From assembly GCF_004117855.1 (NCBI RefSeq), contig NZ_QWBW01000045.1:2190-35125 (forward strand): a stretch of 32,936 bases of DNA, read 5' to 3'. Source of the DNA: Modicisalibacter coralii (lineage in GTDB: Bacteria; Pseudomonadota; Gammaproteobacteria; Pseudomonadales; Halomonadaceae). Below are positions 26,285 to 31,288 of this stretch, in pieces. Position 1 is the first letter of the stretch, and the number at the start of each line of letters is the position of its first letter. The notes beneath the pieces were generated by a model. That model saw nothing but the letters and a program-made list of their open reading frames with translations, was not told the DNA's origin and searched no databases. A program made the position numbers and the translations under genes.

Positions 26285-26764
26285 TCAGGGCTCGGGCGGG
26301 CGTTCCGCGTGGGAGGCCAGGCGCTCGAGGGCGCGTTTGAGGCGGGGGTCGTCGGTGTCGCGGGCGCAGGACGAGATCTCGTCGGCAGCACGGGAGGAGA
26401 GCGAGCGGGTCTGTGTGGGGGGAGGCTTCGGCGGATTCACGGGACGTACCTTGAAGCTCAGGGCGGTCACCGCCTCGAAGCCCGGCAGCTCGTGCAGCAG
26501 GGCCAGCAGCCGCGACTGTTCGTAGCGCAGTCGGGTCAGCCACACGGCGGCATCGGTGATGAGTGTCAGGCGACCCTGACGGTAGCCGCCGACGAAGAGG
26601 TGCGGGCGCACGTCTTCCGGGAGGTGGGCGCGCAGGTGCGTCTGGGCCTGCTCGATGAGTCCGGCCATGCGCATCAATCCGCCCAGTTCGGACGCACCCC
26701 GTGAATGGCCGTCCAGTAACCGCGTCGCGGGCTGGGCGCGAAAACGCTTAGCCTTTATACTCAT
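26285..26764 (-). CDS. dciA: DciA family (DUF721) replicative helicase operator
   Basis: This 159-aa protein has a DUF721/DciA-type N-terminal domain (about residues 20-105). In bacteria without DnaC, DciA assists loading or operation of the replicative helicase DnaB. The domain shows the family pattern L-x-x-H-L-P-E-D-V-R-P-H-L, then R-L-T-L-I-T-D-A-A-V-W-L-T-R-L-R-Y-E-Q, which is the predicted KH-like fold. The C-terminal part (from about 106) is proline-rich and low in complexity. The gene is convergent with lpxC and divergent from the small ORF upstream of secA, a placement I remember for this family in Pseudomonas. The start is ATG 26764 with a weak ribosome site. Function is by family. 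Confidence 0.85.
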   Translation of the reverse strand: MSIKAKRFRAQPATRLLDGHSRGASELGGLMRMAGLIEQAQTHLRAHLPEDVRPHLFVGGYRQGRLTLITDAAVWLTRLRYEQSRLLALLHELPGFEAVTALSFKVRPVNPPKPPPTQTRSLSSRAADEISSCARDTDDPRLKRALERLASHAERPPEP

Positions 26765-26828
26765 TGGCTTGCCCGTGAATCTTCGAATCGTCTGTGCAAT
26801 CTAGCATGCCCGGGAGCCCCTCGACAGC

Positions 26829-27188
26829 ATGAGCGATACTCTGACAGCACCGATGGCCGGCGGCGGCCGCTGCCGACAGCGCACCAGGCGCATGTCGCGC
26901 TGGTGGCTCGCCGGGCTGTTGGTCGGCTGTCTGCTGCCGACCTCGCTGAGCCATGCCGAGGCGCTGCGCTTCGCCGAACAGCTCACCCAGATCTGCCTGA
27001 TGGCGCCGGCCGCGATTCGCGCCGAATCGCGGCGTGTCGCCCGGCGACGGGCGCGTCGCTGCCTGCCGCCGCGCCGGCGTCGCCCGGCGACCCCCGTCAG
27101 CCAGGCTCATGACGCCCGCGTGGCCCTGCGACCGCGCAGTACCGGACTGGACAGCCTCAACCCCCGCGGGCCGCCCCGTCTCGTGTGA
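26829..27188 (+). CDS. Putative SecM-like secretion-monitor arrest peptide upstream of secA
   Basis: This is a 119-aa hypothetical protein with no recognised domain. The N-terminus is a signal sequence: a basic n-region (Arg at 14, 16, 18, 20, 21, 24), a hydrophobic core about W25-L40, and a likely signal peptidase I site S-H-A at 41-43. The mature part (E44-V119) holds 18 arginines in 76 residues. The C-terminus reads [14 protein letters not shown] and then stops, with R113-G114-P115-P116. E. coli SecM ends I-R-A-G-P-Q-R-L-T, and other arrest peptides use RAPP or RAPG. The G-P-x-R-L-x-stop pattern and the location directly before secA fit a translation-arrest secretion monitor. At arrest the signal peptide would be outside the ribosome. 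Codon use (high GC3) supports real coding. Start is uncertain: ATG 26829 or 26892. An unrelated small secreted protein is the alternative. Confidence 0.6.
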
Positions 27189-27224
27189 CGAACAGCGGCG
27201 ATCGCGTCGCTCACGCCAGTCTCG

Positions 27225-27243
27225 CCGGGTGCTCGGCGCCCGG
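27225..27243 (+). promoter_or_regulatory. Stem-loop in the leader between the SecM-like ORF and secA
   Basis: CCGGGTGC (27225-27232) pairs with GCGCCCGG (27236-27243), including one G-U, around a TCG triloop. The stem lies 37 bases after the small ORF's stop and 28 bases before the secA ATG. The secA ribosome site (GGAA, 27262-27265) is weak. The hairpin does not cover that site as drawn, so a regulatory role is plausible but unproven. No T run follows, so it is not a terminator. Confidence 0.45.
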
Positions 27244-27271
27244 GTTAACGCACGATGACACGGAATCCCTC

Positions 27272-30001
<2,730 letters not shown>

Positions 30002-30073: not shown

Positions 30074-31288
30074 ATGGCGGTAGGCGAGGCGGTCTTCCCG
30101 CAAATGCCGGTCATCGAGGGCATTCGGCTCGGCACGGCGCAAGCCGGGATCAAGAAGCCCGGGCGTCGGGACCTGGTGGTGATCGAGTTGCCGGAAGGCA
30201 GTTCGGTGTCGGGTGTCTTCACCCGCAATGCCTTCTGCGCGGCACCGGTGCATGTCGCCAGGCGTCATCTTCGCCAGGCCGGCACGCGCTATCTGGTGAT
30301 CAATACCGGCAATGCCAACGCCGGTACCGGCGAGCGGGGGATGCGCGATGCCGAGGCCACCTGCCAGGCGCTGGCCACGTTGACCGGGTGCGCCGCCGAG
30401 GCCGTGTTGCCGTTTTCCACGGGCGTCATCGGCGAGCCGCTGCCGATGGCGCGCCTGGAGGCGGGGCTGCCTGATGCGCTGGCCGGCCTGGATGACGGCG
30501 CCGAGGCCTGGCAACGGGCCGGCGAGGGCATCCTGACCACCGACACCCGCGCCAAGGGCGCCACGGCCACCTGCACGATCGGCGGGCGTACCGTGACCAT
30601 CAACGGTATCAGCAAGGGCTCGGGCATGATCCAGCCCAACATGGCGACCATGCTGGCCTTCGTCGCCACCGATGCGGCGATCGAGCCGACTCTGCTCGAT
30701 TCGCTGCTTCGCGAATCGGTCGACCGGAGCTTCAACTGCATCACCGTCGACAGCGATACCTCGACCAATGACGCCTGCCTGCTGATGGCGACCGGTCGCA
30801 GTGCCCAAGTGGCCGAAGCCTCGGATATCGCCGACTTCCGCGAGGCCCTCGATCGGGTGATGCTGGCTCTGGCCCAGGCGATCATTCGTGACGGCGAGGG
30901 CGCCACCAAGTTCGTGACGCTGGCAGTCAGTGAGGCCCGGTCGCGCCGGGAGGCGCTGGATGTCGCCTTCACCGTTGCGCACTCGCCGCTGGTCAAGACC
31001 GCCCTGTACGCATCGGATGCCAACTGGGGACGGATTCTCGCCGCCGTGGGCCGCGCGCCCGTCGAGGACTTCGATGTTTCCGCCGTGACCATCGACCTGG
31101 GCGATGTGCGGTTGGTCGAGGGCGGCGGGCGCGCCGAGGACTATACCGAAGCCTCGGGCAGTCGCGAAATGGCCCGCGAGGAGATCACCATCCGGATCGC
31201 CCTGGGGCGCGGTGACGCCGCCGCTACCGTCTGGACGACCGATCTGTCGCACGACTATGTCTCCATCAACGCCGACTATCGAAGTTGA
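30074..31288 (+). CDS. argJ: Bifunctional ornithine acetyltransferase / N-acetylglutamate synthase ArgJ
   Basis: ArgJ (404 aa) recycles the acetyl group from N-acetylornithine to glutamate in arginine biosynthesis, and in many species it can also use acetyl-CoA. It is made as one chain and cuts itself between Ala191 and Thr192 in P-N-M-A-T-M-L-A-F, freeing the Thr nucleophile of the beta chain. The preceding K-G-S-G-M-I motif and the downstream C-I-T-V-D-S-D-T-S-T-N-D-A block are intact, as are A-N-W-G-R-I-L-A-A-V-G and the C-terminal S-H-D-Y-V-S-I-N-A-D-Y-R-S. The ATG 30074 has AGGAGAGAG upstream. The gene follows secA after 72 bases that contain a bulged hairpin but no clear terminator, so it may share secA transcripts. 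Whether it is mono- or bifunctional cannot be read from sequence. Confidence 0.96.
   Translation: MAVGEAVFPQMPVIEGIRLGTAQAGIKKPGRRDLVVIELPEGSSVSGVFTRNAFCAAPVHVARRHLRQAGTRYLVINTGNANAGTGERGMRDAEATCQALATLTGCAAEAVLPFSTGVIGEPLPMARLEAGLPDALAGLDDGAEAWQRAGEGILTTDTRAKGATATCTIGGRTVTINGISKGSGMIQPNMATMLAFVATDAAIEPTLLDSLLRESVDRSFNCITVDSDTSTNDACLLMATGRSAQVAEASDIADFREALDRVMLALAQAIIRDGEGATKFVTLAVSEARSRREALDVAFTVAHSPLVKTALYASDANWGRILAAVGRAPVEDFDVSAVTIDLGDVRLVEGGGRAEDYTEASGSREMAREEITIRIALGRGDAAATVWTTDLSHDYVSINADYRS

Follow-up and report, generated by a model that had tools for sequence, protein, structure and literature searches.

Arrest peptides of the RQH family, which was defined from more than 30,000 genomes (Fujiwara et al. 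2024; PMC10987492), stall the ribosome at the third residue of their motif. According to the main-text sections of that paper, the group named uA_RQH_Pseudomonadales consists of small upstream open reading frames (uORFs) of secA in a subset of the order Pseudomonadales, and its representative, carrying R109GPP, arrested translation in both the E. coli and the B. subtilis PURE systems with an fAP above 0.9. In uDF_RQH_Enterobacterales, arrest opens a stem-loop over the downstream Shine-Dalgarno (SD) sequence and induces secDF2. In the proteins of E. coli and B. subtilis, most motifs of the RAPP-like type caused no stall (PMC10987492). RAPP cores are described as admitting the A-site tRNA and preventing peptide-bond formation (PMC10951233). 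RGPP, which the sequence-only reading of the present locus had taken for a new hybrid motif, is a core already published and, in the part of the study consulted, generally the most robust of those tested (PMC12992588).

The DNA analyzed here (the window) is a stretch of 32,936 nucleotides from Modicisalibacter coralii, in which a uORF lies between dciA on the minus strand and secA, with its stop codon 83 nt before the secA ATG. Its translation confirmed what had been read from the letters, namely a signal peptide, an RGPP end and, if cleavage follows HA-43 (a site placed by eye), a mature product of 76 residues with 18 Arg. Of the features by which the RQH family is recognized, the following were found: a short unannotated ORF directly upstream of secA, an N-terminal signal, a conserved C-terminal RAPP-like motif, and more than 30 residues between signal and motif (77-84, counted from Cys34). 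No Pfam family matched the product up to E 10, and NCBIfam returned only two matches, both far below cut-offs (E 0.1 and 0.66). Simple scans of positions 26600-27400 revealed neither a terminator-like nor a sigma-70-like site. On the 3' side of secA follows a plus-strand ORF (30074-31288) which we take to be argJ-like, and SecD was located in the genome from which the window comes. The features are collected in Table 1, in which the labels "lipobox-like" and "signal peptidase I site" follow the generally known consensus sequences.

Table 1. Features of the secA upstream region in the window
Feature	Position	Strand	Basis
uORF, 119-aa secreted arrest peptide of RQH/RGPP kind (putative)	26829..27188	+	translation, orthologues, conservation
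Signal peptide, residues 1-43: Arg-rich n-region, h-region, putative signal peptidase I site SHA/EA	26829..26957	+	block conserved in 56 members; cleavage site by eye
Invariant Cys34 codon in L-x-[GST]-C (lipobox-like)	26928..26930	+	130/130 non-redundant loci
Conserved block directly after signal peptide (residues 44-74)	26958..27050	+	column conservation
Arg/Pro-rich spacer, sequence drifting, length nearly fixed	27051..27149	+	Cys34 to P-site Pro, 130 loci
C-terminal arrest core (predicted), D108-S-L-N-P-R-G-P-P116	27150..27176	+	family consensus DVL[ST]RRGPP
RGPP; predicted stall with Pro115 (27171-27173) in P site and Pro116 in A site	27165..27176	+	analogy with toeprints in PMC10987492 (main-text sections)
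RNA arm under predicted stalled-ribosome footprint, pairs with secA leader	27178..27187	+	predicted pairing 0.77-0.87 per base
Complementary arm in secA leader, reaching into SD-like CGGAA (27261-27265)	27249..27263	+	folding
secA, presumed target; first codon ATG 27272	27272..30001	+	sequence
dciA, divergent neighbour	26285..26764	-	PF05258, E 2.8e-10

The distribution of the gene was determined from secA loci. secA was located in all 131 Halomonadaceae genomes and in 113 of 115 genomes drawn from the order, and the upstream DNA was read for 100 of the 131 located family genomes and 80 of the 109 located non-family genomes. Twenty family loci (L001-L020) had been chosen by their match to the window's protein, and the remainder (L021-L100) by secA, with those 20 genomes excluded. 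At 86 of the 100 family loci there was a uORF that has a stop of its own and carries R(G/A)PP close to its C-terminus, two of these loci (L020 and L094) having been missed by the filter and called by eye. Among the 80 family loci fetched by secA, 66 carried the gene, 13 lacked it and one had it without a stop. In this last locus (L081, genome G093) the RGPP codons are intact and the uORF frame runs in frame into secA, by fusion or by sequencing error; the 919-aa secA open frame does not obviously fit a fusion. None of the 80 loci of the order outside the Halomonadaceae had a RAPP/RGPP-type ORF upstream of secA, two weak RSPG/HSPG matches being judged spurious; one of these loci (L152) comprised only 245 bases, and eight needed a fallback placement of secA, of which that of L168 is doubtful. 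The uORF is not a chance ORF: a search of 38 genomes gave orthologues in 23, counting its own genome, and 22 of the 24 other genomes of the same family belong to these. In a filtered recovery, 165 of 180 loci were retained, the 15 dropped being the 13 without the gene, L081 and L216. From a search for related stretches the best 80 of 181 were kept, and the named relatives belong to Modicisalibacter, Chromohalobacter, Salinicola, Billgrantia, Litchfieldella, Aidingimonas, Onishia, Vreelandella and Halomonas.

GTDB places most of the former Oceanospirillales in the Pseudomonadales, with Halomonadaceae listed among the merged families (PMC7498684, as far as consulted). Since this family thus belongs to the order in which the published group occurs, and since such uORFs stand at 86 of 100 Halomonadaceae loci vs 0 of 80 elsewhere in the order, the uORF almost certainly belongs to uA_RQH_Pseudomonadales, whose representative appears without its species in the text available to us. 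Both have the position before secA, an N-terminal signal and RGPP near the C-terminus. The published core begins at R109 and that of the window at R113, and an Arg at 109 is possible in 14 of the 130 non-redundant loci. Probably there is no difference and the window contributes a further orthologue of the group, an identity that we infer from distribution and taxonomy. For this group the main-text sections of PMC10987492 give neither an RNA switch nor a history of the slot, and the Halomonadaceae gene was not found by name in those parts of the literature that were searched. ApdA and ApdP (RAPP, upstream of secDF) and ApcA (RAPG, upstream of yidC) likewise place a RAPP-like core next to the peptidyl-transferase centre, and RAPP itself occurs in 9 of the 130 Halomonadaceae uORFs, but these peptides have other target genes and come from other phyla, a separation made on their descriptions in the same sections (PMC10987492). 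uDF_RQH_Enterobacterales shares the RGPP core, but it is described as controlling secDF2 and not secA (PMC10987492, main-text sections).

Alignment of the C-termini, which the sequence-only reading had proposed, gave R113, P115 and P116 as invariant in all 56 aligned members while the middle drifts; the other invariant positions are M1, L31, C34, L35 and P37. Conservation is high in the signal peptide (25-40), in the block after it (about 47-77) and from D108 to P116, and mostly low between the post-signal block and the core (with P86 as an exception) and beyond P116. Across the motif codons of 84 loci every synonym is in use, six for Arg and four each for Gly and Pro. As the core codons vary in this way around invariant R113, P115 and P116, it is the peptide that is conserved. 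The core consensus is DVL[ST]RRGPP, with RGPP in 121 and RAPP in 9 of the 130 non-redundant loci, these loci having been gathered with an [RHQ][AG]PP filter; reading the 100 family loci with no such filter turned up no homologous ORF that lacked the motif. The tail after the motif has 1-16 residues (sd 3.54) that differ among loci, and the stop lies at a median of 74 nt from secA. RAPP replaces RGPP in at least three groups (L022, L043, L057, L068, L078 and L087 of genus g7; L005 and L008 of g1; L245), and all nine RAPP loci have Pro before the core (PRAPP), like PRGPP in the window, Arg being usual before RGPP. In genus g7 the gap to secA is long as well, at 170-188 nt.

The resemblance to E. 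coli SecM is one of arrangement. Both peptides are encoded upstream of secA (in the order lpxC-secM-secA in E. coli and dciA-uORF-secA here) and have a signal peptide and a C-terminal arrest core; the third core residue in the P site, the regulation by export and the sequestration of the secA start in RNA would likewise be common to both. The SecM-type slot is present in the window, and a stem over the secA start is supported at the level of the family, weakly in the window. SecM uses FxxxxWIxxxxGIRAGP with Gly165 in the P site, vs RGPP with Pro expected there. The uORF has a spacer of about 80 residues from Cys34; for SecM, counting from the end of the signal, the median in the main-text sections of PMC10987492 is 131.5 for the long type and 71 for the short one. 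A divergent orthologue of SecM, in which the arrest core had shifted from RAGP to RGPP, would account for the shared slot and logic, the two signal peptides and the likeness of the window's end, G-P-P-R-L-V, to G-P-Q-R-L-T of SecM. This is very unlikely and descent from SecM was rejected, because Pfam SecM (PF06558) matched 0 of 56 uORF members at E <= 1 (E. coli SecM as positive control, 4e-58) and the profile-profile comparison (hhalign) gave E 0.71, outside SecM's own arrest core. The SecM arrest sequence F-x4-W-I-x4-G-I-R-A-G-P is absent from the uORF, and no Phe, Trp or Ile is conserved 10-16 residues before the RGPP core in the aligned members. The lack of such ORFs at the other 80 loci of the order also speaks against orthology. 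The expectation that the peptide is divergent or independently evolved and lacks the F/W/I arrest residues of SecM was therefore upheld, while the SecM-like RLx-stop tail that had been pointed out in the window proved to be unconserved.

Where the uORF is lacking, the slot is mostly occupied by another gene. At 59 of the 80 non-family loci of the order an M23-peptidase gene, recognized by sequence pattern and confirmed with Pfam in one representative, lies within 500 nt upstream of secA. For the hypothetical gene in the same slot of Pseudomonas that the sequence-only reading had mentioned, no equivalent was found among these 80 loci, which were sampled by order. Within the Halomonadaceae the same sequence pattern placed an M23 gene within 500 nt upstream of secA at 12 of the 13 loci without the uORF and about 0.5 kb upstream at the thirteenth, G047 (the uORF-less loci with M23 at secA are L024, L025, L037, L039, L041, L054, L056, L065, L067, L075, L077, L086 and L278). 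A search of 61 family genomes gave a full-length M23 orthologue in 10, always upstream of secA; the other 51 have only peptidase-domain matches elsewhere and all 51 carry the uORF. The two genes are thus mutually exclusive in 61 of 61 family genomes searched, which together with the slot data indicates that the uORF stands in place of the M23 gene. An origin of the uORF from the M23 N-terminus, prompted by an ERLTQI-like echo, was rejected (profile comparison of 11 columns, E 0.087, probability 0.7%).

The signal, as read by eye, combines an Arg-rich n-region with a run of 17-24 uncharged residues, the length being 19 in 98 of the 130 loci. Cys34, within L-x-[GST]-C, is present in all 130 non-redundant loci and is encoded by TGC in 70 and TGT in 60. 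From this residue to the P-site Pro the distance is 77-84 residues with an sd of 1.77, compared with 6.45 for the N-region and 3.54 for the tail, and locus recovery had allowed a wider range of 50-110 residues from box to motif. The nearly fixed length of the spacer suggests timing between engagement of the signal and arrest. It is conceivable, if improbable, that the invariant L-x-[GST]-C is functional and that the monitor would read, besides Sec pulling, a second membrane event such as lipoprotein maturation at this nearly fixed distance from the stall site. Counting against a lipoprotein-type reading are the A, G or S kept at column 43 after the Cys, as for signal peptidase I, the Thr at -1 in one locus, and the hydrophobic residues following the Cys.

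An ordinary small secreted Arg-rich protein, whose RGPP end served the mature product and not the ribosome, would also have a signal peptide, and the conserved block after it (44-74) and the average net charge of +12 of the mature part would fit such a product. We regard this as highly improbable, since the spacer drifts in sequence at nearly fixed length, the last conserved residues are those of the arrest core, and the gene stands before secA with RNA pairing to the secA leader. RGPP, moreover, is avoided in proteomes, where it is under-represented, and is reported in the part of PMC12992588 consulted to be over-represented in small ORFs upstream of sec genes.

The complementarity between the end of the uORF and the secA ribosome-binding site (RBS) is new here; its statistics are at the level of the family and are weak in the window alone. 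Compared with dinucleotide shuffles, it peaked in the scan segment that spans -6 to +15 relative to the P-site codon (n=130, mean z -1.07, SE 0.12); segments from +12 or later were close to zero, and segments upstream of the core dipped less deeply (to z -0.66 at -24 to -3). With the 18 nt after the core, the locus's own leader surpassed foreign leaders in 30 of 42 dissimilar loci (Wilcoxon p 0.0012); individually, 9 of the 42 reached p <0.05 (2.1 expected) and 4 had p >0.95, worse than shuffles. A first duplex test of matched against swapped pairs (98/130) left base composition uncontrolled and was superseded. As a control, 63 loci with M23 in the slot were scanned with anchoring on the stop codon, because they have no stall site, and the profile was flat (mean z -0.42 to +0.11, slightly negative overall). 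With the same stop anchoring 87 uORF loci reached only z -0.75, a weaker contrast than in the stall-anchored scan.

The cost of opening the region -25..+3 was, on average, 11.88 kcal/mol in the full RNA, 10.37 with a synonymously permuted uORF end, 10.19 with foreign uORF ends and 8.52 with everything up to P+16 removed. The full RNA was dearer to open than its synonymously permuted counterpart in 65 of 87 loci (p 7e-7), than RNA with foreign uORF ends in 58 of 85 (p 2e-6) and than RNA with the footprint removed in 73 of 87 (p 7e-12), the 87 loci having been thinned less strictly than the 42, so that related species are counted repeatedly. For the narrow SD, opening was dearer with the real codons than with synonymous permutations in 60 of 87 loci (p 2e-6), and than with the footprint removed in 77 of 87. 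The footprint-removed comparison is partly trivial, because taking out RNA takes out pairing partners, whereas the permuted and foreign comparisons are not.

In the window a helix between 27178-27187 and 27249-27259 is predicted with pair probabilities of 0.77-0.87 and is kept in the centroid, while the SD end pairs weakly, the Pro116 codon pairing with the arm 27249-27263 at 0.19-0.33. Depending on the folded stretch, opening 27249-27263 costs 4.9-7.0, vs 4.0-4.4 when the footprint is removed. The standard opening costs hardly change, at 2.27 kcal/mol for the narrow SD (1.95 with the footprint removed, 2.34 synonymously permuted) and 6.38 for the wide region (5.75 and 6.10, respectively). The window's fold is less stable than all 200 shuffles (z +2.05) and its 18-nt arm alone is not significant (p 0.11). 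With its own signal this weak, the RNA switch is a result of the family. A leader peptide acting by translational coupling only, in which a passing or terminating ribosome opens the secA leader with no sensing of export, agrees with an RNA arm under the footprint of any ribosome at the ORF end and with the short distance from stop to secA, but it is extremely improbable, since it leaves the invariant R-P-P with varying codons, the signal peptide and the nearly fixed distance from signal to motif unexplained.

We consider it highly probable, on analogy and sequence comparison, that the uORF encodes an arrest peptide of the RQH (RAPP-like) family which monitors Sec export and controls secA. The idea of an export monitor for secA, put forward from the sequence, has thus gained good support from conservation, from the family-level RNA complementarity and from the arrest published for an RGPP uORF (PMC10987492, main-text sections). 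In the proposed mechanism the ribosome would translate the signal peptide and the spacer of about 80 residues and stall when Pro115 occupies the P site and Pro116-tRNA the A site, because the R-G-P core would block transfer to the incoming proline. Pulling on the nascent chain by an engaged export machinery would cancel the arrest, and translation would terminate three codons beyond the motif; the mRNA at the uORF end would then pair with the secA leader and keep secA translation low. When export is limiting, the stalled ribosome would stay, cover the RNA arm and free the secA ribosome-binding region, raising SecA. Arrest, release dependent on pulling and regulation of secA are proposed for this gene by analogy: the main-text sections of PMC10987492 describe, for relatives, the arrest and the position of the stall and, in the case of a secDF relative, that the downstream gene is induced. 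The gene, its conservation, its slot, the spacer length and the family-level RNA complementarity come from the present analysis.

The uORF is real and conserved and very probably acts as an export monitor of a kind already described, and the novelty is modest, consisting of the RNA switch statistics, the nearly fixed spacer, the replacement in the slot and the unexplained invariant Cys. With its 130 non-redundant loci, the family is large and well sampled, so that an RGPP monitor can be studied comparatively, together with its spacer length and its RNA switch. Because a monitor gene has here taken over from a conserved M23-peptidase gene in the slot at secA, it becomes testable whether secA monitors are born independently. 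For the Halomonas strains used in biotechnology, the uORF marks a probable control point of SecA.
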